Shown: positions 8,391 to 47,340 of the stretch, in pieces
How positions within the stretch are numbered: position 1 is the first letter of the stretch
How the letters are laid out: each line of letters opens with the position of its first letter
Origin: Sinomicrobium pectinilyticum
Lineage (GTDB): Bacteria; Bacteroidota; Bacteroidia; Flavobacteriales; Flavobacteriaceae
DNA: 64,000 nucleotides
Reading direction: 5' to 3'
NCBI RefSeq assembly: GCF_003725735.1
Contig: NZ_RJTM01000116.1
Span: 1 to 64,000 of the forward strand
Position numbers and translations under genes: made by a program
Notes under the pieces: generated by a model
Told to the model about the DNA's origin: nothing
What the model saw: only the letters and a program-made list of their open reading frames with translations
The model's database searches: none

Positions 8391-8418
8391 TCCCGCAGGC
8401 CATCTTATCGCTTCCCGG

Positions 8419-8436
8419 TCCCGATAACTATCGGGA
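8419..8436. repeat. Palindrome copy 1 in RNase P RNA (P3 arm)
   Basis: TCCCGATAACTATCGGGA forms a near-perfect hairpin between the P2 strand and the CR-I core, which is where P3 belongs. Confidence 0.8.
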
Positions 8437-8615
8437 TCCGGGGAGAGGAAAGTCCGGACACCACAGCGCAGCGTAGCGGGTAACACCCGCCCCCCGGCTT
8501 ACCGGGAGAGGACAAGTGCAACAGAAAGGATGTACAGGTAATGCTGTAGTGAAATCAGGTAAACTCTACGCGGTGCAACGCCATGTATACCGGCATTTAA
8601 GGGTTGCGCGCCCGA

Positions 8616-8633
8616 TCCCGATAACTATCGGGG
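8616..8633. repeat. Palindrome copy 2 in RNase P RNA (P15-P17 arm)
   Basis: TCCCGATAACTATCGGGG differs from copy 1 only in the last base. It lies just before the conserved GGGTAGGC, in the arm that corresponds to P16/P17 of class A RNAs. Confidence 0.8.
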
Positions 8634-8828
8634 TGCCGGAGGGTAGGCGGTTAGAGATCCCGGGTAACCGGTATCCCAGATAAATGATAAGACTCGACAG
8701 AATCCGGCTTACAGGCCTGCTTTTTTTTATTTTTAGAGACTCAAGGCTTCAGACCCCGGGCTTTAATTTCCGGGCATATACTGCATCACCATTCTTTTGC
8801 ACATGTCTCTCAACTTCGGAACTGCAGG

Positions 8829-37237: not shown

Positions 37238-37359
37238 TCCTCTGTTTTAGAAAATAAGAATGTTACAAATTTAACAAATCCTTTACGAAAGATTGCCTCT
37301 CAAAAGGATTTTATTTTGTACTATTGCAATGTGAAAAACAAGTACTGGGGTTATCACTA

Positions 37360-37389
37360 TTGAAATTTTTGTTTACCTCAATATTTTTG
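37360..37389 (+). promoter_or_regulatory. Promoter of the arginine leader and operon
   Basis: TTG at 37360-37362 and TATTTTTG at 37382-37389, with a 19-base spacer, are the best -33/-7 pair in this gap. The predicted transcript start at about 37394-37396 lies at the edge of the leader ATG (37397). Confidence 0.65.
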
Positions 37390-37396
37390 ACAGAAA

Positions 37397-37492
37397 ATGC
37401 AAAACACTCACAACATATCTACTTCAGTTTTCCTGAGACTTCCGGTTTCAGAGATTCGTCCTGTTGTGCGTCGTACCCCCCGTCGCCCGTAA
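37397..37492 (+). CDS. Arginine-rich leader peptide, putative attenuator of the arginine operon
   Basis: A 31-codon frame, ATG 37397 to TAA 37492, directly behind a -33/-7 promoter and 87 bases before the first gene of the arginine cluster. It encodes seven arginines, five of them in the last 11 codons (RPVVRRTPRRP), all read from CGT or CGC except one AGA. An arginine-codon run just before a stop and upstream of arginine biosynthesis genes is the classic layout of ribosome-mediated attenuation. The 342-base gap holds no other supportable gene. That the peptide is translated and that stalling regulates the operon are inferences. I do not know a described family for it. Confidence 0.6.
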   Translation: MQNTHNISTSVFLRLPVSEIRPVVRRTPRRP

Positions 37493-37500
37493 GGGTGTAC
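37473..37500 (+). promoter_or_regulatory. Hairpin over the end of the leader frame
   Basis: GTACCCCC (37473-37480) can pair with GGGTGTAC (37493-37500) with one mismatch. Its left arm overlaps the last Arg-Thr-Pro codons, so a ribosome stalled on the arginine codons would open it. A second weak stem, GGAAC (37510-37514) with GTTCC (37528-37532), follows. No T-run is seen, so control may act on translation or RNA stability instead of termination. Confidence 0.35.
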
Positions 37501-37579
37501 TTTAATTTTGGAACTTAGGTGAGTCCGGTTCCCCTTTCAAAGAAAATTCCACTTATTTTTTCAACCAAGTAAAAGCAAA

Positions 37580-38281
37580 ATGGACATTGTTATTGCTGAC
37601 AAGTCGCATATAAAATTCGCTTCCCTTATCTGTGATACGATCGAAGAATCGGCCAAGGTAAGAGGTACCGGTATTGCCAAAAGGACTCCGGAATACATTA
37701 TTTCGAAGATCGAGAACGGCAATGCTGTGATTGCTGTAGACGGCGATAAATTTGCAGGGTTCTGCTACATTGAAGCCTGGGGGCACGAAAAGTTCGTCGC
37801 CAACTCCGGGCTGATCGTTCATCCGGACTACCGGAACCTGGGTCTTGCGAAAAAGATCAAGAAGGCTATTTTTGACCATTCCAGGAAAAAATACCCGGAC
37901 GCCAAAATATTCGGTATTACTACGGGGCTTGCCGTAATGAAGATCAATTACGAACTGGGATACAGGCCCGTGACTTTTTCCGAGCTTACGGACGACCCTA
38001 CCTTCTGGAAGGGCTGCCAGACCTGTAAAAACTACGACATCCTGCAACGGACACAACAAAAGATGTGCCTGTGTACCGGGATGCTCTACGATCCAAAAGA
38101 AAAGGAAAACACCGAGGTAAAGCACCCCTATAACAGTAAGGTGCTCCAAAGGTTGAAAAATATAAAACAGAGTATCTTTCTGAAAAACAAGAAACCTTCC
38201 AAAAATTCCATTATCCCTGTAGAAGAAGGGTTTATAAGTCTGAAGAAGGTTATGGATAAATTAAAAGGAAATAATAAATAA
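37580..38281 (+). CDS. GNAT family N-acetyltransferase, candidate N-acylglutamate synthase
   Basis: A 233-residue protein that opens the arginine cluster. The GNAT fold is shown by the acyl-CoA-binding segment VHPDYRNLGLAKKIKK (R-x-x-G-x-A type, about residues 80-95) and the strands around it. A C-terminal extension has four cysteines in two pairs, C146/C149 (WKGCQTCKNYDIL) and C163/C165 (KMCLCTGMLYD), that could hold a metal. No argA or argJ gene is in the cluster, and the pathway needs an enzyme to acylate glutamate. Position therefore makes this the likely first-step enzyme. The exact acyl group, acetyl or succinyl, is not known. Confidence 0.75.
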   Translation: MDIVIADKSHIKFASLICDTIEESAKVRGTGIAKRTPEYIISKIENGNAVIAVDGDKFAGFCYIEAWGHEKFVANSGLIVHPDYRNLGLAKKIKKAIFDHSRKKYPDAKIFGITTGLAVMKINYELGYRPVTFSELTDDPTFWKGCQTCKNYDILQRTQQKMCLCTGMLYDPKEKENTEVKHPYNSKVLQRLKNIKQSIFLKNKKPSKNSIIPVEEGFISLKKVMDKLKGNNK

Positions 38282-38350: not shown

Positions 38351-39538
38351 ATGAAAAAACTCGTTTTGGCATACAGCGGCGGACTGGACACTTCTTATTG
38401 TGCAAAATACCTATCACAGGAAAAAGGATATGAAGTACATGCCGTAAGCGTAAATACCGGAGGATTTACTCCCGAAGAGAAAAAGGAGATCGAAGAAAAA
38501 GCCCTGAAACTCGGGGTAGCGACATACAGCAACATTGAAGCAGTAGACTCTTTTTATAACAAGGTGGTTAAATACCTTATTTTCGGGAATGTTTTAAAGA
38601 ACAACACCTACCCGCTTTCCGTCAGTGCCGAACGGATCGTGCAAGCTATCGAGATCGTAAACTACGCCAAGAAAATAGGCGCCCAATACATTGCCCACGG
38701 CAGTACGGGGGCCGGGAACGACCAGGTAAGATTTGATATGATATTCCAGATACTCGCCCCGGAAATAGAGATTATCACCCCTATCCGTGACGAGCAGCTT
38801 TCCAGGCAGGAAGAAATCGGTTACCTGAAGAAAAACGGGGTGGACATGTCCTGGGAAAAAGCCAAATACTCCATAAACAGGGGACTTTGGGGTACCAGTG
38901 TAGGTGGTGAAGAAACCCTCACCTCCCATCAGTCGCTCCCGGAAGAAGCCTACCCGAGTCAATTGAAAAGCGAAGGTTCCCAAAAGATAAAACTCACTTT
39001 CAGTCAGGGGGAACTGATAGCCATAGACGGCAAGGAAGACAGCCCTGTCAAAAACATAGAACTGCTCAACAGTATGGCTTCCCAATATGCCATAGGGCGT
39101 GATATCCATGTGGGAGACACCATTATCGGTATTAAGGGGAGGGTCGGTTTTGAGGCCGCTGCCCCCCTGATTATCATAAAGGCACACCATACCCTGGAAA
39201 AACATGTACTTACCAAATGGCAACAGCATCATAAAGAGTACCTGGCCAACTGGTATGGCATGCTCCTTCACGAAGGACAATATCTCGACGAGGTCATGCG
39301 TAATATCGAGGTTTTTCTTGCTGACACACAGAAAAATGTTTCCGGAGATGTGTTTGTCACCCTCCATCCGTACCGTTTTGTAGTAGATGGCATCCAATCC
39401 GGACACGACCTGATGAACGCTTCCTTCGGCAGCTACGGGGAAATGAACAAAGGCTGGACCGCAGATGATGCCAAAGGGTTTATCAAAATCAACTCTAACC
39501 AGAACAAGATCTATTATCACGTAAATAAAATAAATTAA
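38351..39538 (+). CDS. argG: Argininosuccinate synthase
   Basis: A 395-residue enzyme that joins citrulline and aspartate with ATP. The PP-loop is AYSGGLDTSYCAKYL, followed by HGSTGAGNDQVRFD and the INRGLWGTSVGGEE active-site segment. In this pathway citrulline is formed by deacylation of N-acyl-citrulline, so ArgG works after ArgF' and the M20 enzyme. It is the second gene of the cluster, 69 bases after the GNAT gene. Confidence 0.95.
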   Translation: MKKLVLAYSGGLDTSYCAKYLSQEKGYEVHAVSVNTGGFTPEEKKEIEEKALKLGVATYSNIEAVDSFYNKVVKYLIFGNVLKNNTYPLSVSAERIVQAIEIVNYAKKIGAQYIAHGSTGAGNDQVRFDMIFQILAPEIEIITPIRDEQLSRQEEIGYLKKNGVDMSWEKAKYSINRGLWGTSVGGEETLTSHQSLPEEAYPSQLKSEGSQKIKLTFSQGELIAIDGKEDSPVKNIELLNSMASQYAIGRDIHVGDTIIGIKGRVGFEAAAPLIIIKAHHTLEKHVLTKWQQHHKEYLANWYGMLLHEGQYLDEVMRNIEVFLADTQKNVSGDVFVTLHPYRFVVDGIQSGHDLMNASFGSYGEMNKGWTADDAKGFIKINSNQNKIYYHVNKIN

Positions 39539-39610
39539 AGTACGAAGCACGAAGGCAGAAGATAGAAGTAAAGATATAATGCCCTTCGTCTGAAATTTAA
39601 AGATTTAAAA

Positions 39611-40588
39611 ATGATACAAGCAGGAATAATCGGGGGTGCCGGGTACACCGCCGGGGAATTAATACGATTGCTACTGCACCATCCCGCAGCAGAAATAAAT
39701 TTCGTTTACAGTACTTCCAACGCCGGCAACGCCATAAGTGACATTCACCAGGACCTCCTGGGAGAAACAGAACAGGAATTCACCGGAGAAATAAACCCCG
39801 AGGTAGATGTCCTTTTTCTCTGTCTCGGTCATGGCAATTCTAAATCCTTTCTCGAAAAACACCGGTTTTCTGCTAAAACAAAGATCATAGACCTGAGTAA
39901 TGATTTCCGGTTAAATCCCGATGCCGATTTTAACGACATGCATTTCGTATACGGATTGCCCGAACTCAACAAGGAGGAAATAGAAAATGCACAATACATA
40001 GCCAATCCGGGCTGCTTTGCCACTGCTATTCAACTGGCATTACTCCCCCTGGCAAAACACGGACTGTTAAAACAGGATATTCATATCAATGCGGTAACCG
40101 GGGCTACCGGGGCGGGTACCTCCCTTTCCCCCACCTCGCATTTTCCGTGGCGCGACAACAATTTTTCGTATTACAAGCCTTTTACCCATCAGCACCTGGG
40201 AGAAATAGGACAAAGTATAGCACAGTTGCAGCATTCCTTTGACAAAGAGATACTCTTTATGCCTTACCGGGGGAATTTTTCCCGCGGGATCTTTGCCACT
40301 GCGTATACGGAGTTTGACGAAAGTGCAGATAAAGCAAAAGAAATATACGGGGATTTCTATAAAAATGCTGCTTTTACTACGGTAAGTGACAAGGAATTAC
40401 ACCTCAAACAGGTGGTCAATACCAATAAATGCCTTATTCACCTGCATAAGCACAAAAACAAACTGTTGATCACTTCTATTATCGATAACCTGACCAAGGG
40501 TGCATCCGGACAGGCCATACATAACATGAACCTGATATTCGGACTGGAGGAAACCCTCGGACTCGGATTAAAAGCCTCGTATTTTTAA
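39611..40588 (+). CDS. argC: N-acyl-gamma-glutamyl-phosphate reductase
   Basis: A 325-residue NADPH enzyme that reduces N-acylglutamyl-5-phosphate to the semialdehyde. The Rossmann motif is GIIGGAGYTAGELIRLL. The catalytic cysteine is Cys135 in ANPGCFATA, and the later segment is HQHLGEIGQ. It is followed by two palindromes that share a CGGCCG centre. In this organism the acyl group may be acetyl or succinyl. Confidence 0.95.
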   Translation: MIQAGIIGGAGYTAGELIRLLLHHPAAEINFVYSTSNAGNAISDIHQDLLGETEQEFTGEINPEVDVLFLCLGHGNSKSFLEKHRFSAKTKIIDLSNDFRLNPDADFNDMHFVYGLPELNKEEIENAQYIANPGCFATAIQLALLPLAKHGLLKQDIHINAVTGATGAGTSLSPTSHFPWRDNNFSYYKPFTHQHLGEIGQSIAQLQHSFDKEILFMPYRGNFSRGIFATAYTEFDESADKAKEIYGDFYKNAAFTTVSDKELHLKQVVNTNKCLIHLHKHKNKLLITSIIDNLTKGASGQAIHNMNLIFGLEETLGLGLKASYF

Positions 40589-40602
40589 TACAGGCCCCGT
40601 AC

Positions 40603-40622
40603 AGGCGTACGGCCGTACGCCT
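40603..40622. repeat. Palindrome with ACGGCCGT core, copy 1
   Basis: AGGCGTACGGCCGTACGCCT is a perfect 20-base palindrome that starts 15 bases after the argC stop. It is one of four arginine-cluster palindromes with a CGGCCG centre. Confidence 0.85.
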
Positions 40623-40640
40623 TCAATTCATTAATTGTAA

Positions 40641-40664
40641 AGCATCGTGCGGCCGAACGATGCT
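40641..40664. repeat. Palindrome with CGGCCG core, copy 2
   Basis: AGCATCGT (40641-40648) and ACGATGCT (40657-40664) flank GCGGCCGA. The arms are unrelated to those of copy 1. Only the centre is shared. Confidence 0.8.
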
Positions 40665-40696
40665 GCAAGGGCCACAAGGCAAATAAAAACCAACGC

Positions 40697-41491
40697 ATGA
40701 AAATAGCCATAATAGGAACCGGAAACCTGGGGCTTTCCATAGCCAAAGGACTCATCATCAGTAACTCGGTCACCACCCTTTACCTGACCAAAAGGAACCC
40801 GGGTGCCATTAAAAACTGGGAAGAGTACGGGAATGTCATCGTAACCTCCGACAACCGTGAAGCGGTAAAGAACTCAGATATCCTGATCTTTGCCGTACAG
40901 CCGGGACAGTTCGAAGGAATATTACAGGAAATAAAGGACCTGCTGAATGAAAAACACGTACTTATTTCCACCATTACCGGGTTTAAGATCCGGAAAATCG
41001 AATCTGTTATCGGCAATGAACACTATATCATCCGTAGTATGCCCAATACAGCCATTTCCGTCGGCAAATCCATGACCTGTGTATGCAGCAACGAAAAGGG
41101 AAAACAACGTGTGGAACTGGCCAGGGCCATTTTCAACAAACTGGGGACTTCCATAGAGATTCCCGAAGAACAGATGCGTGCGGCTACCGTGATCTGTGCC
41201 AGTGGCATCGCTTTCTGGATGCGCCTTATACGCGCTACGACGCAGGGGGCTATTCAGCTGGGGTTCGATGCCAAGGAAGCACAGGAACTGGCGATGCATA
41301 CCTGTATGGGGGCGGCTACCCTCCTTGTGGAATCCGGTAATCACCCGGAGGAAGAAATCGACAGGGTAACCACCCCGAGGGGATGTACCATAGAGGGTCT
41401 CAACGAAATGGAACACAGCGGGCTAAGTTCTTCCCTTATTAAGGGAATTGTGTCCTCTTTCAACAAAATAAACCAGATTGCCGACCTGTAA
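40697..41491 (+). CDS. proC: Pyrroline-5-carboxylate reductase
   Basis: A 264-residue NAD(P)H enzyme for the last step of proline synthesis. The opening IAIIGTGNLGLSIAKGLI is the nucleotide site, RSMPNTAISVGKSMT is the ProC signature region, and the C-terminal part has TTPRGCTIEGLNEMEH. Its place in an arginine cluster suggests that proline and arginine synthesis share glutamate-derived precursors. In some relatives proA and proB also lie here. They are absent from this cluster. Confidence 0.93.
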   Translation: MKIAIIGTGNLGLSIAKGLIISNSVTTLYLTKRNPGAIKNWEEYGNVIVTSDNREAVKNSDILIFAVQPGQFEGILQEIKDLLNEKHVLISTITGFKIRKIESVIGNEHYIIRSMPNTAISVGKSMTCVCSNEKGKQRVELARAIFNKLGTSIEIPEEQMRAATVICASGIAFWMRLIRATTQGAIQLGFDAKEAQELAMHTCMGAATLLVESGNHPEEEIDRVTTPRGCTIEGLNEMEHSGLSSSLIKGIVSSFNKINQIADL

Positions 41492-41548
41492 AATTTGATA
41501 ATGAGATAATTGGGCGATGTGCCAATGAGATAATGATTAATAAAATAA

Positions 41549-41574
41549 TTGGCACATTGACTAATTGACCAATT
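41549..41574. repeat. AT-rich dispersed repeat before argD
   Basis: TTGGCACATTGACTAATT followed by GACCAATT matches the unit seen before argG (38302-38335). It fills most of the 111-base gap between proC and argD. Confidence 0.5.
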
Positions 41575-41602
41575 TTCTAATTAATAATTTTCAACATCCG
41601 AA

Positions 41603-42736
41603 ATGAAACTATTTGACGTTTACCCATTATATGATATTACCCCGGTACAAGGAAAAAATGTCCATGTTACTGATGATAAAGGCATTACTTATCTCGATCT
41701 TTACGGCGGGCATGCCGTGATCTCCATAGGCCATTCCCACCCCAGGTACGTATCTGCAATATCCGAACAAGCCGGCAAACTCGGATTTTACTCGAATGCC
41801 GTGCAAAACCCGCTGCAGATGGAACTGGCAGAAAAGCTCGGGGCCCTTTCCGGATGTGACAATTACGAACTTTTTCTCTGTAATTCCGGGGCAGAAGCCA
41901 ACGAAAACGCATTGAAACTCGCTTCTTTCCAAACCGGAAAAGCCAGGATCATTGCCTTTAACAATGCCTTTCACGGACGGACCTCGGCAGCGGTAGCGGC
42001 TACGGATAACAAAAATATCAATGCCCCTATCAATGCCCAGCACCAGGTAACCTTCCTGGAACTGGGAGATATCGCTGCACTGGAAAAGGAGTTGCAAAAA
42101 GGCGATGTATGTGCGGTTATCATAGAGTTTATCCAGGGTGTGGGCGGACTGGATGAGGCAACGGCTGATTTCTATGAGAATGCAGACAAACTCTGCAAAC
42201 AACATGACAGCATGTTCATTGCGGACGAAATTCAATGCGGATATGGCCGTACCGGAGACTTCTTTGCCTTTCAGCAGTATAACGTAACACCTGATATTAT
42301 TTCCATGGCCAAAGGTATGGGCAATGGCTTTCCGGTAGCGGGAATTCTCGTTTACCCGTCCATCAAGGCAAAACACGGTATGCTGGGAACTACTTTCGGA
42401 GGAAACCACCTGGCCTGTGCAGCCGCCATTGCCGTACTGGATGTACTCAAAGAAGAAAAACTCATGGAAAATACCAGGGAAGTTGCAGCCTATTTTGTGG
42501 AAAAGGCCGGGACCATACCACAGATAAAGCAGATAAAGGGCCGGGGATTGATGCTGGGACTGGAATTTGATTTTGAAGTGGGCGAACTCCGGAAAAAGCT
42601 TATTTACGACCATCATATTTTTACAGGCGGGAGCAGCAATAAAAAGCTATTGCGTATTTTACCTCCGCTGACGGTGAAGAAAGAACATATCGATGCGTTT
42701 TTTGATGCATTAAATAACGTAGTAATGAACTCTTAA
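41603..42736 (+). CDS. argD: N-acylornithine aminotransferase
   Basis: A 377-residue class III PLP aminotransferase that converts N-acylglutamate semialdehyde to N-acylornithine. Visible are LYGGHAVISIGHSHPRY, FCNSGAEANE-type NSGAEANENALK, FIADEIQCGYGRTG and the PLP lysine Lys237 in ISMAKGMGNGFPV. Its place between proC and argF' fits the arginine assignment better than a general aspartate aminotransferase-family label. Confidence 0.92.
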   Translation: MKLFDVYPLYDITPVQGKNVHVTDDKGITYLDLYGGHAVISIGHSHPRYVSAISEQAGKLGFYSNAVQNPLQMELAEKLGALSGCDNYELFLCNSGAEANENALKLASFQTGKARIIAFNNAFHGRTSAAVAATDNKNINAPINAQHQVTFLELGDIAALEKELQKGDVCAVIIEFIQGVGGLDEATADFYENADKLCKQHDSMFIADEIQCGYGRTGDFFAFQQYNVTPDIISMAKGMGNGFPVAGILVYPSIKAKHGMLGTTFGGNHLACAAAIAVLDVLKEEKLMENTREVAAYFVEKAGTIPQIKQIKGRGLMLGLEFDFEVGELRKKLIYDHHIFTGGSSNKKLLRILPPLTVKKEHIDAFFDALNNVVMNS

Positions 42737-42760
42737 AAATCTTCCTCACCAGAGGAAAAA

Positions 42761-42784
42761 AGCTCCCCTCTTGAGAGGGGAGCT
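42761..42784. repeat. Hairpin after argD
   Basis: AGCTCCCCTC (42761-42770) pairs perfectly with GAGGGGAGCT (42775-42784) around TTGA. The weak GTTTCGTTTT after it makes it a possible terminator or processing element. The rest of the gap is AT-rich TAATAAC-type filler. Confidence 0.6.
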
Positions 42785-42852
42785 GAGTTTCGTTTTCCTG
42801 AAGGGCATACCTAATAACTAAATAACCCAATAACATATTAACTTAAAAACAA

Positions 42853-43800
42853 ATGAAACACTACCTGACAACAGATGACATAGACAGTGTCCCGGAAATC
42901 ATAGCTGAAGCCATTGCATTAAAAAAGGATCCCTATCGGTTCGAGGAACTCGGAAAGCGTAAAACGCTGGGGATGTTATTCTTTAATTCCAGTCTGCGTA
43001 CCCGTCTTAGTACACAAAAGGCGGCCATGCAACTGGGAATGCAGGTTATGGTCATGAATTTTTCGGGTGAGGCCTGGTCACTGGAGTTTGAAGACGGTAG
43101 TGTAATGAATGGTTCTACCTCCGAACACATTAAAGAAGCCGCCGCGGTAATTTCCCAGTACTGTGACGTTATTGCGGTAAGGGCATTTCCTACGTTGACG
43201 GATAAGGAAAAAGACGAGGAAGAATACGTTTTGAAAAGTTTTCAGAAATACGCGTCTGTACCTGTTGTAAACATGGAAAGCGCTACAGCGCACCCTTTAC
43301 AGGCCCTAACGGATGCCATTACGATAACGGAACTGAAAACCAAAGAAAAGCCGAAAGTTGTCCTCTCCTGGGCACCACATCCCAAGGCATTGCCACATGC
43401 TGTCGCCAATTCCTTCACCGGTATGATGCGCAAAATGGATGTGGAATTTGTCATCACCCATCCAGTCGGATATGAACTCAATCCGGAGGTCACGGGAGAT
43501 ACCCCGATAATCTACGACCAGGATGAAGCATTGAAAGATGCTGATTTTGTATATGTAAAGAACTGGAGTTCGTATAAAGATTACGGCCAGGTATTGCACA
43601 CCGACCCGGGTTGGAGGATTACGCCGGAAAAAATGGCATTGACGGATAATGGTAAATTCATGCATTGCCTGCCTGTACGGAGAAACGTTATCGTGGACGA
43701 TGCTGTCCTGGACAGCCCGCAATCCGTCGTTATACCACAGGCTAACAACCGTACCTTTGCAGCACAAATTGTCCTGAAACATATATTACAATCATTATAG
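42853..43800 (+). CDS. argF': N-acylornithine carbamoyltransferase (ArgF')
   Basis: A 315-residue transcarbamylase of the type that acts on N-acetyl- or N-succinyl-ornithine instead of free ornithine. The carbamoyl phosphate motif is SSLRTRLSTQK, followed by HPLQALTDA and HCLPVRRN. It aligns without gaps, over the first 92 residues, with the B. fragilis N-succinylornithine enzyme as I remember it. At the specificity position (Pro90 there, Glu92 in the X. campestris acetyl enzyme) this protein has Ser90 (GSTSEH), so the acyl preference cannot be read from that rule. The gene lies between argD and argB. Confidence 0.92.
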   Translation: MKHYLTTDDIDSVPEIIAEAIALKKDPYRFEELGKRKTLGMLFFNSSLRTRLSTQKAAMQLGMQVMVMNFSGEAWSLEFEDGSVMNGSTSEHIKEAAAVISQYCDVIAVRAFPTLTDKEKDEEEYVLKSFQKYASVPVVNMESATAHPLQALTDAITITELKTKEKPKVVLSWAPHPKALPHAVANSFTGMMRKMDVEFVITHPVGYELNPEVTGDTPIIYDQDEALKDADFVYVKNWSSYKDYGQVLHTDPGWRITPEKMALTDNGKFMHCLPVRRNVIVDDAVLDSPQSVVIPQANNRTFAAQIVLKHILQSL

Positions 43801-43802
43801 TA

Positions 43803-43824
43803 AAGCCCTACGGCCGTGGGGCTT
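43803..43824. repeat. Palindrome with ACGGCCGT core, copy 3
   Basis: AAGCCC and GGGCTT arms flank TACGGCCGTG, starting 2 bases after the argF' stop. It has a T/G pair next to the core. Confidence 0.8.
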
Positions 43825-43881
43825 AATCGGGAGCCACTACCATGGGTCTCAATGATACCCCGGGTCTAAAAAAAGAAAAAA

Positions 43882-44661
43882 ATGAAACCTAAATTATCCG
43901 TAGTCAAAATAGGCGGAAATATCATAGAAAACGAATCGGCATTATGTGATTTCCTTACGGATTTTGCGGCAATGGAAGGTTACAAAATCCTGGTCCACGG
44001 AGGTGGCAGGACGGCGACCCGCATTGCGGAACAACTCGGTGTGCCTGCACAGATGGTAGGCGGACGGCGCATCACTACCCGTGAAACCCTGGACGTGATC
44101 GTTATGGTCTATGGCGGACTTACCAACAAGAATATTGTTTCACTCCTGCAAAGCCTGGACTGTAACGCCATAGGACTGTCCGGAGCGGACGGCAATACCA
44201 TTGTTTCCGATAAAAGACCGGTAAAGGACATTGATTACGGCTATGCCGGCGATATAAAACAGGTAAATGCCCATGCAGTCAAAGCCTTGCTGGAAAGTAA
44301 CATGACTCCGGTATTCTGTGCCATTACCCACGATAAAAGAGGGCAATTGTTCAATACCAATGCAGATACCATTGCCTCCGAAGTAGCGATAGCTATGAGT
44401 GAACATTTCGAAACCTCATTATATTATTGTTTTGAGAAAAAAGGGGTATTGCGAAGCATCGAAGACGACAACTCCGTTATAGAACATATCAATACGGAAA
44501 AATACGAACAACTGCTCGCCGAAAACATCATAGCGGACGGCATGCTGCCTAAAATGCACAATTGCTTTAACGCTTTACAACAACACGTGAGCAAAGTACA
44601 TATCGGCCTGCCGGGTATGATCGTCGGGAAAGAAAGACTGTTTACAACGCTAACATTATAA
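43882..44661 (+). CDS. argB: N-acylglutamate kinase
   Basis: A 259-residue amino acid kinase that phosphorylates N-acylglutamate, the second step of the pathway. The ATP-site glycines are in VVKIGGNIIE, the substrate loop is VHGGGRTATRIAEQLG, and later come GLSGADGNTI and the metal/ATP segment FNTNADTIASEVA. The N-terminal arginine-binding helix of feedback-inhibited forms is absent, so control at the enzyme level may be weak. That fits a need for control at the leader. The latter link is inference. Confidence 0.93.
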   Translation: MKPKLSVVKIGGNIIENESALCDFLTDFAAMEGYKILVHGGGRTATRIAEQLGVPAQMVGGRRITTRETLDVIVMVYGGLTNKNIVSLLQSLDCNAIGLSGADGNTIVSDKRPVKDIDYGYAGDIKQVNAHAVKALLESNMTPVFCAITHDKRGQLFNTNADTIASEVAIAMSEHFETSLYYCFEKKGVLRSIEDDNSVIEHINTEKYEQLLAENIIADGMLPKMHNCFNALQQHVSKVHIGLPGMIVGKERLFTTLTL

Positions 44662-44672
44662 TACAGATTAAC

Positions 44673-44702
44673 CGTAAAGATGCACGGCCGTGCATCTTTA
44701 CG
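44673..44702. repeat. Perfect 30-base palindrome with ACGGCCGT core, copy 4
   Basis: Arms CGTAAAGATGC (44673-44683) and GCATCTTTACG (44692-44702) flank ACGGCCGT. It lies 11 bases after the argB stop. No T-run follows, so it is not a simple terminator. Confidence 0.9.
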
Positions 44703-44744
44703 AATCTCAACGGGATAATCTTCATAAAAAGATATAAAATAAGC

Positions 44745-45806
44745 ATGATAGACCAGCTCACACCATCGGCCATAGCGCTGTTAAAACAACTGATAAACAC
44801 ACCTTCTTTTTCTTCGGAAGAGGACAAAACCGCAGCCCACATAGAAAACTGGCTGCAATCGCACAACATACCGTTCCGGCGCAGGGATAACAATGTATAT
44901 GCCTTCAATAAGTATTTTGAAGAAAGCAAACCTACCTTGTTGCTCAATTCGCATCACGATACCGTAAGACCGAACACGGCTTATACGAAAGACCCGTTTG
45001 ACGCCCATATCGAGGACGGGAAATTATACGGACTGGGAAGCAATGACGCCGGGGGGTGCCTGGTGTCGCTCCTGGCCACTTTCGCCTACTTCTACGACAA
45101 GCCCGACCTGAATTACAACCTGATCATCGTGGCTTCGGCGGAAGAAGAAAGTTCGGGCGACAAGGGACTGAACAGCATGCTCCCCGTATTACCTCACATA
45201 GACGTAGCTATTGTAGGTGAACCTACGCTCATGCAACTGGCCATAGCAGAAAAAGGATTGGTGGTGTTTGATGCCACAGTAAAAGGCACGCCCAGTCACG
45301 CTGCGCATCCCAACGACAATAATTCCATTTACAATACTATCAAAGTACTGGAATGGTTCCGGGACTACCGTTTCGAAAAGGTTTCGGAAGTACTCGGGGA
45401 AGTGAAGATGACAGTAACCCAGATCAATGCGGGGAAACAGCACAATGTGGTTCCGGCGGAGACCAATCTCGTTATCGACGTACGGGTCAATGACAAATAT
45501 ACCAACCGGGAGATCGCAGATCTGCTACAGGCACAATCTCCCTGTGATGTTATCACTCCCCGTTCATTAAGGCTTAATTCATCATCCATCCCCAAGGAGC
45601 ATCCTTTAGTACAGGCCGGAATAGCTTTGGGAAGAGAAACTTATGGTTCGCCTACGCTTTCTGACCAGGCCGTATTGACTTGTCCGTCCCTGAAATTAGG
45701 CCCCGGAGATTCGACACGATCGCATTCGGCAGATGAGTTTATTTATGTGAAGGAGATTGAGGAAGGGATCAAGCTCTATATAAAACTATTGGAAAAAGTA
45801 TTGTAA
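44745..45806 (+). CDS. argE': M20 family deacylase, probable N-acyl-citrulline/ornithine deacylase
   Basis: A 353-residue zinc peptidase-family amidohydrolase. Metal ligands are in LLNSHHDTVRP (His, Asp), LGSNDAGG (Asp) and ASAEEESSGD (Glu-Glu), with the dimerisation insert around PSHAAHPNDNNS. In a pathway that uses ArgF' the deacylase must act on N-acyl-citrulline to release citrulline for ArgG. The gene lies between argB and argH, which supports that role over a general peptidase. The acyl group removed is unknown. Confidence 0.88.
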   Translation: MIDQLTPSAIALLKQLINTPSFSSEEDKTAAHIENWLQSHNIPFRRRDNNVYAFNKYFEESKPTLLLNSHHDTVRPNTAYTKDPFDAHIEDGKLYGLGSNDAGGCLVSLLATFAYFYDKPDLNYNLIIVASAEEESSGDKGLNSMLPVLPHIDVAIVGEPTLMQLAIAEKGLVVFDATVKGTPSHAAHPNDNNSIYNTIKVLEWFRDYRFEKVSEVLGEVKMTVTQINAGKQHNVVPAETNLVIDVRVNDKYTNREIADLLQAQSPCDVITPRSLRLNSSSIPKEHPLVQAGIALGRETYGSPTLSDQAVLTCPSLKLGPGDSTRSHSADEFIYVKEIEEGIKLYIKLLEKVL

Positions 45807-45867
45807 AAAGACAAACTCTCTTTTAAATTTAGCCTGAATTGAACCTGTATCAATTCGGGTCCAACAT

Positions 45868-45933
45868 CTTTGCGAATCTTTGTGCTATTCTGTACAGCTT
45901 TGTGTAATAGTTATTTCACAGAGTTTCACAAAG
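45868..45933. repeat. Inverted CTTTG/CACAAAG dispersed repeat before argH
   Basis: CTTTGCGAATCTTTGTG (45868-45884) is the inverted match, 14 of 17 bases, of CACAGAGTTTCACAAAG (45917-45933). I recall similar strings as common flavobacterial intergenic filler. Confidence 0.5.
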
Positions 45934-46062
45934 GTCTCTCAGAGATACACAGAAGTTTGATTTTATTAAAAACTGAAAAAACAGATCATGGGTATTTTAT
46001 AAGTTAATCGGGATATTCACGTTACCTTATTAACTCTTTTACTCTTTAACTAAGCACAAAAC

Positions 46063-47340
46063 ATGAAACTCTGGGACAAAGGCTTTAGCACCGACAAAAA
46101 AATAGATCACTTTACCGTAGGAAATGACAGGGAACTGGACCTTCTCCTCGCCAGATATGATGTTATCGCTTCTACGGCACATGCGAAAATGCTGGGGAAG
46201 ATAGGTTTACTGACTGAGGAAGAAACCGGGCAACTGGTTACGGAACTGGGAAACATTCAGAAAGATATAGAAACGGGGAACTTCACTATAGAAGACAGCT
46301 TTGAAGACATGCACTCCAAAATAGAGTATCTCCTGATCCAAAAACTCGGCGATACGGGAAAAAAGATACATACGGCACGCTCCCGGAACGACCAGGTACT
46401 TGTGGCCATGCACCTGTACCTGAAACACGAATTACAGGAGATCAGGCAACAGACTGTTGAACTCTTTGATCTCCTGATGGAACTGGCCGAAAAGTACAAG
46501 GATGTTCTTCTCCCCGGCTATACACATTTACAGATCGCCATGCCTTCTTCTTTCGGGCTGTGGTTTTCCGCTTATGCCGAAAGCCTTATCGATGACCTCT
46601 ATTTTATTGATGCCGCTTATAAGGTGGCCGACCAGAATCCGCTGGGAAGTGCTGCCGGGTATGGTAGTTCTTTCCCCATAAACCGGGCCTTTACGACTGA
46701 AGAACTCGGTTTTGCCACGATGAAATACAATGTTGTAGCTGCACAAATGGGACGTGGAAAAGTAGAAAAAAGCGCTGCATTCGGTATGGGGAGCATTGCC
46801 GCCACGCTTTCTAAAATGGCCATGGATGTATGCCTGTACATGAGCCAGAATTTCGATTTTATTTCCTTCCCGGACGAACTTACTACGGGAAGCAGCATCA
46901 TGCCGCATAAAAAGAACCCGGATGTGTTTGAACTTATCCGGGGGAAATGCAACAAGATACAGGCAGTACCTAACCAGCTTACGCTTATCATCAACAACCT
47001 GCCCAGCGGCTATCACAGGGACCTGCAACTGGTAAAAGAAGTCATTGTACCTGCCATACAGGACCTTAAAGCCTGCCTGGAAATGGCTGCCTTTACGCTG
47101 AAAGACATCCGTGTGAACAACGGTATCCTCGAAGACCGGAAATACGATTACCTCTTTAGCGTGGATACGCTTAACGAACTCGTACAGTCCGGGATGCCTT
47201 TCCGGGATGCCTATAAAAAAATGGGAATGGACATTGCCGAAGGGAACTTTAAACCCAAAAGGGATATACGCCATACCCACGAAGGCAGCCTGGGCAATCT
47301 TTGCCTGGAAGAGATCCGGGAGAAAATGAAAAAGAGCTGA
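46063..47340 (+). CDS. argH: Argininosuccinate lyase
   Basis: A 425-residue fumarase-superfamily enzyme that splits argininosuccinate to arginine and fumarate, the last step of the pathway. The signature loop is GSSIMPHKKNPD, preceded by HTARSRNDQV and PGYTHLQIAMPSSFG. It is the last gene of the cluster. It is followed by about 390 bases of repeats and then the convergent peroxidase gene. Confidence 0.95.
   Translation: MKLWDKGFSTDKKIDHFTVGNDRELDLLLARYDVIASTAHAKMLGKIGLLTEEETGQLVTELGNIQKDIETGNFTIEDSFEDMHSKIEYLLIQKLGDTGKKIHTARSRNDQVLVAMHLYLKHELQEIRQQTVELFDLLMELAEKYKDVLLPGYTHLQIAMPSSFGLWFSAYAESLIDDLYFIDAAYKVADQNPLGSAAGYGSSFPINRAFTTEELGFATMKYNVVAAQMGRGKVEKSAAFGMGSIAATLSKMAMDVCLYMSQNFDFISFPDELTTGSSIMPHKKNPDVFELIRGKCNKIQAVPNQLTLIINNLPSGYHRDLQLVKEVIVPAIQDLKACLEMAAFTLKDIRVNNGILEDRKYDYLFSVDTLNELVQSGMPFRDAYKKMGMDIAEGNFKPKRDIRHTHEGSLGNLCLEEIREKMKKS

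Follow-up and report, generated by a model that had tools for sequence, protein, structure and literature searches.

Leader Peptides and the Control of Arginine Biosynthesis

Most of what is known about arginine control in bacteria concerns the ArgR repressor. Among leader peptides that act by halting the ribosome, TnaC of the tna operon (PMC8429421) stalls in response to free tryptophan. TnaC has a Pro-stop end at which the halted ribosome could shield a Rho site; the arginine leader described here mostly has a similar end, but only its Arg codons are conserved and its stop codon moves. Another type of leader is represented by mgtP of the Salmonella mgtCBR operon, a proline codon-rich frame that answers to low levels of charged tRNA-Pro (PMC3641672). 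Both mgtP and mgtM are short leader frames, whose tandem arrangement recalls a two-leader subgroup of the loci analyzed here; however, they respond to other signals, control other genes, and belong to Proteobacteria.

According to the main text of a 2010 survey of terminators, leader peptides were then known, ermC apart, only in Proteobacteria and Actinobacteria, to which the survey added Firmicutes; the words “arginine” and “Bacteroid” are absent from that text (PMC2965389). For Bacteroidota, the Bacteroid-trp leader (RF01692; PMC2864571) has been described, likewise a leader RNA of this phylum, which serves a different amino acid, has a different structure, and includes an intrinsic terminator. 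The transcriptome of F. psychrophilum provided strong clues to leader-peptide attenuation before amino acid operons, and it revealed elements upstream of pheA and of hisG that are conserved in Flavobacteriaceae; among its structured 5′ regions, no arginine leader was found in the main text, which mentions arginine once, in connection with cyanophycin (PMC9723704). The transcript map of B. thetaiotaomicron reports short frames reminiscent of leader peptides, in passages that do not mention arginine (PMC7366714). Among the open-licence papers listed at the top of literature searches, none described an arginine leader peptide or arginine attenuation, in Bacteroidota or in general, which is weak evidence of novelty.

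An Arginine-Rich Frame Upstream of Nine Genes

The DNA analyzed here, referred to as the window, is a 64,000-nucleotide stretch of the Sinomicrobium pectinilyticum genome (contig NZ_RJTM01000116.1, positions 1 to 64,000, forward strand). The best named relative is S. oceani, whose GNAT protein is 95% identical; the genus is Sinomicrobium-like. The region upstream of the arginine genes contains the following features.

37360..37389, plus strand: promoter-like site consisting of TTG (37360-37362), a 19-base spacer, and TATTTTTG (37382-37389), from direct reading and comparison with relatives
37397..37492, plus strand: leader peptide frame MQNTHNISTSVFLRLPVSEIRPVVRRTPRRP followed by the stop codon, 31 codons, 6 of them Arg, from direct reading and comparison with relatives
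37457..37486, plus strand: five Arg codons (codons 21, 25, 26, 29, and 30), the proposed control codons, from reading and frame comparison
37484..37497, plus strand: hairpin A, CGCCC GTAA GGGTG, with the last Arg codon and the Pro codon in the 5′ arm and the stop codon TAA in the loop, from covariation
37498..37509, plus strand: U-rich linker between hairpins A and B (56% T over 68 family loci), from composition
37510..37532, plus strand: hairpin B, a bulged stem GGAAC..GGTTCC with inner GG/CC and the pentaloop TGAGT (37520-37524), from covariation
37580..38281, plus strand: first gene, GNAT-family acetyltransferase, from a weak, below-cut-off NCBIfam match
38351..47340, plus strand: argG, argC, proC, argD-like, N-acylornithine carbamoyltransferase, argB, argE/dapE-like, and argH, which probably form a cotranscribed and controlled operon

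The preliminary description of this region, made from the sequence alone, placed the frame within 8 bases of a promoter (there are 7 bases between TATTTTTG and the ATG at 37397) and its end 87 bases before the first gene, which is indeed the distance from the leader stop to the GNAT start at 37580. Its count of seven Arg codons was one too high, as direct reading gives six; five do lie within the last 11 codons, as it had stated. The arginine cluster of nine genes that it saw downstream is also there. The argC, proC, carbamoyltransferase, argB, and argH products, five of the nine, pass the NCBIfam cut-offs, and the names GNAT, argG, argD-like, and argE/dapE-like reflect the best NCBIfam match only. 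For GNAT, the score was 21.8 bits against a cut-off of 154; judging from its position in the operon, this protein may be an N-acylglutamate synthase.

The leader frame is short enough for annotation to miss it, and no Rfam model matches this element: the search gave no RF01692, T-box, riboswitch, or other family match, the only match up to an E value of 10 being a chance one on the other strand. Elsewhere in the window, a class A bacterial RNase P RNA lies at 8392-8727 on the plus strand.

Distribution of the Element in the Family

The first gene of the operon, GNAT, was detected in 98 of the 149 family genomes, and the upstream DNA of 70 of these was combined in alignment A1, which includes three loci (L005, L016, and L017) that were added by hand because the first pattern had missed them. 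All 70 aligned loci contain the Arg-codon core, a hairpin A whose loop includes the stop codon or lies close to it, the U-rich linker, and hairpin B; two of them (L045 and L055) have degenerate cores. Here and in the counts below, the loci are related by descent and therefore do not represent independent events. The element is present in all 6 genomes of the genus and in 80 of the 80 named Flavobacteriaceae loci, from a separate collection, that were the best of 458 relatives, at least 4 of these loci coming from genomes already in the covariance model R1.

In a set of 60 genomes, model R1 matched 38 of the 39 GNAT-positive ones, each time just 5′ of GNAT; in G033, the single exception, the corresponding position is occupied by a divergent version (L130, L165). 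Among the 21 GNAT-negative genomes, there was no R1 match with an E value below 0.005, at filters strict enough to lose weak matches. Matches away from the arg operon in the 60 genomes were weak. Twenty of the weak places listed were read, of which L130 was the divergent element at GNAT-argG and the other 19 were not convincing. The best match off the arg operon, L121 (G048:C9:28824-28895; E of 3e-4), has no obvious gene start close by on the same strand.

Coding Selection and Arginine Specificity

Anchored at the last Arg codon, the leader frame runs through at least 20 codons without a stop in all 72 of the family loci compared, as against 19 and 22 of the 72 for the other two frames and 38% of shuffles. 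These 72 loci come from a set of 74 (the 70 aligned ones and L242-L245), the two with degenerate cores, L045 and L055, being missed by the pattern. The leaders vary in length and sequence but share an Arg-rich tail, mostly RRRP or RRP, with RRT, PRT, RRTFVRA, RRLVRV, and RRLVRI also represented. Within the genus, differences between leaders fall on codon positions 1, 2, and 3 in the numbers 32, 49, and 97, an excess at the third position. By codon, 65 of the differences are synonymous and 75 are nonsynonymous; these similar numbers indicate weak constraint on the main part of the peptide. The data indicate that the short frame before the arg operon is under selection as a coding sequence, in keeping with its recurring start and promoter distance, and the alignment check that had been proposed for it came out in its favor, with the frame and its Arg codons kept in 72 of 72 loci and CGN and AGR synonyms exchanged.

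Outside the family, ATG frames with three or more Arg codons among their last 14 occur 5′ of the same gene in 62 of 91 loci, as against 8 on the reverse strand of the same loci and 5.7 (maximum, 10) in shuffles; no such frame was seen in the other 29. A few of the 62 frames (e.g., L227, L233, and L261) look accidental. Upstream DNA was covered for 72 of the 83 GNAT-positive genomes of one set; a further set of 95 GNAT-positive genomes gave 19 new places, with a twentieth, G033, already known from the family search. The 91-locus test leaves out the family itself, L150, which is short, and two loci that are truncated or misplaced (L188 and L256). Tails of such frames include PSRRRVYSPRV, RRRRYFFRV, RPVFYIRR, and PFFPRR, each directly followed by the stop codon. 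Their Arg codons comprise 88 AGR and 175 CGN; since both spellings are in use, it is the Arg codons that are conserved and not a DNA word. In f94, which belongs to another class of the phylum, an Arg-rich frame is found in 13 of the 13 usable loci (L247-L255 and L257-L260), 9 of them with the tail RIPRRR before the stop codon; the search that led to f94 gave 30 loci for 61 matching genomes. By eye, the stop codon often lies within a hairpin in f94 and elsewhere in the class, such as AGGGTTTGACCCT or GACGCTGATCGCGTC.

The enrichment appears to be specific for arginine, the product of the operon: with a cut-off of at least 4 codons, Arg qualified in 40 loci and Leu, which ranked next, in 8, the reverse strand and the shuffles giving 2 and 1.2 loci, respectively. 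This result bears on the idea that the leader frame has no sensing role and, for example, delivers ribosomes that raise GNAT translation by reinitiation. Leader genes have been proposed, as a general matter, to allow reinitiation (PMC4833913), but this gives no reason for the preference for Arg among the 20 amino acids (40 loci, with at most 8 for any other) or for the absence of ArgR from these genomes (see below), which makes a frame of this kind hardly credible.

Two Hairpins Downstream of the Arginine Codons

The hairpin over the Arg codons and the stop codon that was noticed in the window corresponds to hairpin A (CGCCC-GTAA-GGGTG, 37484-37497), which spans the last Arg codon and the stop. 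Hairpin B (37510-37532), missed in the preliminary description, is the better conserved of the two. In the family, 90.3% of the cells of hairpin A are paired, with changes on both sides in 2 of 5 pairs; the corresponding values for hairpin B are 93.6% and 7 of 8 pairs. For the two hairpins together, 92.3% of the cells pair and double changes occur in 9 of 13 pairs, a fit reached by none of 500 shuffles and destroyed in a control in which the partners were slid against each other. Alignment-based fold prediction recovered hairpin B and two pairs of hairpin A. In single-sequence folding, the leader of the window was no better than shuffles (z of -0.05; -0.68 to +1.74 in another run), so that the evidence for the structure comes from covariation in the relatives. 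No further helix stood out in a scan of alignment columns, a scan that would miss helices at variable distances.

Hairpin B is the least understood part of the element. Its bulged A, inner GG/CC, and UGNGU loop are nearly invariant in the family, and coding or ribosome position alone does not explain the near invariance of the loop. The loop lies 56 to 114 nt before GNAT, apart from L050 (183) and L064 (254). Outside the family, a hairpin with a UNNGY pentaloop follows the leader in 10 of 67 loci, where shuffles gave 0.78 and the loop class that ranked second gave 5, and the loops of this type read UACGY or UCCGU.

An element with so constant a loop might be a purely RNA-based sensor, with hairpins A and B forming an arginine riboswitch or a protein-binding element next to an incidental frame. 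The near invariance of hairpin B, which does not stem from coding, and the lack of an Rfam match would both agree with this. However, an incidental frame would not be expected to stay open in 72 of 72 loci or to spell Arg outside the family with both AGR and CGN; in other families, the Arg codons are kept and it is the loop of hairpin B that differs (UNNGY hairpins in 10 of 67 loci), and two distant relatives look like textbook attenuators. An RNA sensor of this type is accordingly judged very improbable.

Several more specific roles of hairpin B were considered. Its loop in the family resembles a Shine-Dalgarno-like site, but the loops outside the family, UACGY or UCCGU, do not favor that function. 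A general element shared by multiple operons was rejected, as a scan of the S. pectinilyticum genome for AGGTGNGTCC gave 20 matches compared to 24 for the reversed control. Competition of the 5′ arm of hairpin A with the loop of hairpin B is not supported by the variants L005 and L016 and shows no corresponding covariation. Phage lambda N, which binds boxB, provides a precedent for recognition of RNA by an arginine-rich peptide, and binding of hairpin B by the arginine-rich leader peptide in the same manner was considered by analogy.

Predicted Control by Ribosome Stalling

The last Arg codon and the GG of hairpin B are separated by 31 to 36 nt in 72 of 72 loci, within a search range of 29 to 46 nt. 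Measured from where the last Arg codon starts, the stop codon lies at 6 nt in 61 of the 72 loci and at 15 to 33 nt in the other 11. Thus, the distance is fixed to the Arg codons and the stop codon is mobile, which favors stalling on the Arg codons rather than an arrest when translation terminates. Judging by the usual footprint, hairpin A would be covered by a ribosome placed on the Arg codons, with hairpin B just outside its reach.

The proposed mechanism starts from an arg operon mRNA whose 5′ end would encode a short leader peptide with a terminal run of Arg codons. When charged tRNA-Arg is scarce, the ribosome would stall on these codons and cover the 5′ arm of hairpin A, so that hairpin A could not form, while hairpin B, located 31 to 36 nt past the last Arg codon, would lie just outside the stalled ribosome. 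The operon would be expressed in this state. When arginine is plentiful, the ribosome would reach the stop codon and leave, hairpins A and B could form, and expression of the nine-gene operon would be expected to fall.

Comparison across genomes establishes the sequence side of this scheme, that is, the coding frame, the Arg codons, both hairpins, and their fixed geometry, together with the lack of a detectable ArgR; that uncharged tRNA-Arg causes the stalling, in which direction the operon responds, and which step forms the output are what these features suggest. The layout of ribosome-mediated attenuation that the preliminary description recognized in a single genome thereby gains support from the frames, Arg codons, and hairpins of its relatives. 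Control of the operon by a leader peptide with Arg codons, through ribosome stalling, is considered highly probable, and it is very likely that in many Bacteroidota such a leader switches on the arginine genes when arginine is short. In many other bacteria this task falls to a repressor protein, which most of these Bacteroidota lack; ribosome stalling seems to take its place as the arginine sensor in a large part of the phylum.

The same ribosome could instead be halted by its own nascent peptide, as in TnaC or SpeFL, at the RRP-stop end, with the peptide in the tunnel sensing free arginine or ornithine. The position of the stop codon one codon after the last Arg in 61 of the 72 family loci, with Pro mostly in between (a residue that the anchor word favors), would suit such an arrest, and a ribosome that shields a Rho site while sitting at the stop codon is the known logic of tna. 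Yet Pro and the stop codon prove dispensable: 11 of the 72 frames read on for 3 to 9 more codons with the spacing from Arg to hairpin B unchanged, several family tails are RRT, PRT, RRLVRI, or RRTFVRA, and tails outside the family end in RR, PRV, IRI, or RIPRRR before the stop. The leaders differ widely in length, and a comparison for the conserved nascent-chain residues and fixed stop of the TnaC/SpeFL type revealed nothing conserved beyond the Arg tail, the stop having moved in those 11 loci. Nascent-peptide arrest is thus improbable, if somewhat less so than an RNA-only sensor.

As for the output of stalling on the Arg codons, premature termination of transcription is favored over control of translation or of RNA stability. 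Such termination would proceed without an intrinsic terminator, most likely with the help of Rho or a different factor at the untranslated RNA between the leader and GNAT, and is given about an even chance. From hairpin B to the gene, the RNA is G-poor (6.9%). The 60 nt before the last Arg codon contain approximately 15.5 C and 9.8 G, whereas the first 60 nt of GNAT contain 10.5 C and 9.9 G. This composition is compatible with Rho and says no more than that; naming Rho is a guess from composition.

Leaders with and without Intrinsic Terminators

The absence of a clear terminator with a T-run, pointed out in the preliminary description, holds for this genome and generally for the family, and two distant relatives do have one. 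Before the first gene, the window contains no G+C hairpin with an immediate T-run beyond hairpin A itself. A looser scan of the window listed a single site, hairpin A with its 5 pairs and an interrupted T stretch (0.4 sites expected from shuffling), and a stricter scan listed nothing there, so an intrinsic terminator in the window was rejected as a candidate. Applied to the family, the stricter scan picked out hairpin A at L028, L061, L069, and the divergent L165; at L004, L006, L013, L040, L049, and L050, the site listed falls within the leader frame. An antiterminator strand was likewise sought in the window by pairing the leader with the arms of hairpins A and B; none of the three tests clearly outdid the shuffles, of which 51, 238, and 357 of 500 were as good.

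The two distant relatives, L216 and L217 from another family, combine an Arg leader with a T-run terminator (-17.5 and -17.9, respectively). A strand of the leader can pair with the 5′ arm of the terminator, at -24.4 in L216 (none of 500 shuffles) and -15.7 in L217 (7 of 500). In minimum-energy folds of the RNA left free beyond a ribosome on the Arg codons, the terminator is still present, which implies that antitermination would require the competing strand to pair first during transcription.

Leaders for two other amino acids serve as yardsticks within the genus. A his leader with a strong terminator was recognized by eye in 6 of 6 genomes (L236-L241); in S. pectinilyticum itself (L238, on contig C110), it encodes MNPIVLHHHHFYTCTQAR before the stop codon, and a leader strand predicted to open the terminator pairs at -21.3 kcal/mol, with none of 500 shuffles as good. 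The Bacteroid-trp leader is also found in 6 of 6 genomes, 5 of them over the Rfam cut-off, and two of the leaders were read. The S. pectinilyticum copy (L343, C2:55386-55512) encodes MHTILNNTWWWSNLRRNVVS before the stop codon, with WWW codons, and is followed by an intrinsic terminator and a trpE-like gene, named from its sequence. Given these his and trp leaders with their terminators, leader-peptide attenuation is, as far as sequences can tell, in use in the genus. The arg leader resembles the his attenuator in being a short leader with a run of cognate codons before a biosynthetic operon. It differs in that the his attenuator has an intrinsic terminator while the arg leader of the window lacks a T-run terminator and a detectable antiterminator, and in that the arg stop codon lies inside a small hairpin that is followed by a conserved second one. 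The arg leader thus apparently represents a terminatorless form of leader-peptide control. A single genome that has attenuators with (his and trp) and without (arg) an intrinsic terminator offers a clean setting for studies of terminatorless output.

One tentative reading is regarded as possible rather than probable. It posits an Arg attenuator as old as the phylum, in which the terminator would have been replaced by hairpin B as a recognition hairpin with a UNNGY pentaloop, placed 31 to 36 nt past the control codons and read by a protein, RNA polymerase, or a ribosome only while a ribosome is parked on the Arg codons. If true, reading of a recognition hairpin would be a new output stage for ribosome-mediated attenuation, one that works without a terminator/antiterminator pair.

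ArgR and Loci without the Leader

ArgR (PF02863) was found in none of the 149 family genomes, in a search that was positive for 8 of 14 control genomes, including E. coli and B. subtilis. In the class, 11 of 247 genomes encode ArgR, and in six class genomes its gene is located directly 5′ of GNAT. Upstream DNA was read for four of these six, the Bacteroides-like L219, L222, L225, and L226, where the ArgR gene directly precedes the GNAT-argG operon, and none of the four passed the Arg-leader test; L222 contains a 13-codon GTG frame with Arg. Loci with ArgR and loci with the leader can be viewed as an exchange of one regulator for another, which is directly testable.

Neither the leader nor ArgR was seen in the examined loci of a family guessed to be Chryseobacterium-like and of g127, a genus of the family studied here. 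In this family, the loci seen to lack the Arg frame are those examined for g127, L168-L170 and L246 together with the more distant GNATs L151, L152, L154, and L163. In the leaderless loci L151, L152, L154, L159, L161, and L164, GATAAAATATC-like palindromes were noticed by eye 5′ of GNAT; possibly, these are operator sites of some regulator.

Promoter Region and Tandem Leaders

The promoter-like site of the window, TTG and TATTTTTG separated by 19 bases, reads as the preliminary description had it, and we take it to be of the -33/-7 type of Bacteroidota; the recurrence of the box in relatives makes this plausible. Promoter counts were made on 60 of the 70 aligned family loci. An exact TAnnTTTG is found within 120 nt 5′ of the leader ATG in 27 of the 60, compared to 7.9 in shuffles, and 22 of these 27 exact boxes lie at -12 to -16 from the ATG. 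If inexact boxes are included, the best one lies at -15 or -12 in 42 of the 60 (a count made without a shuffle control), with -15 mostly in loci with a single leader and -12 mostly in loci with two. Loci such as L007, L010, L048, and L058 deviate from this pattern, and the exact promoter word is not preserved within the genus. Because the box recurs at -15 or -12 from the ATG, transcription probably starts within a few bases of the leader ATG.

Within window positions 37312-37379, approximately 70 to 85 nt 5′ of the leader, the block TATTTTGTA[CG]TATTGCAA is kept in 6 of 6 genus members, several of which have an inverted repeat of the type GAGGT...ACCTC after it. This block might be a second promoter or an operator. 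The word at 37312-37329 was considered for the main promoter, being kept in all 6 members of the genus; the site at 37360-37389 was preferred because the family box sits at -15 or -12.

A subgroup of the family has Arg leaders in tandem (L037, L041, L047, L054, L057, L061-L063, and approximately 19 further loci). The first leader lies at about -300 to -225 and often reads MKxLKNKIRC..PGLPVRxRRRF before the stop codon. The second often has approximately 30 codons, with a GTG or TTG start in frame. In many of these loci, a small AT-rich hairpin can be seen by eye between the two leaders.
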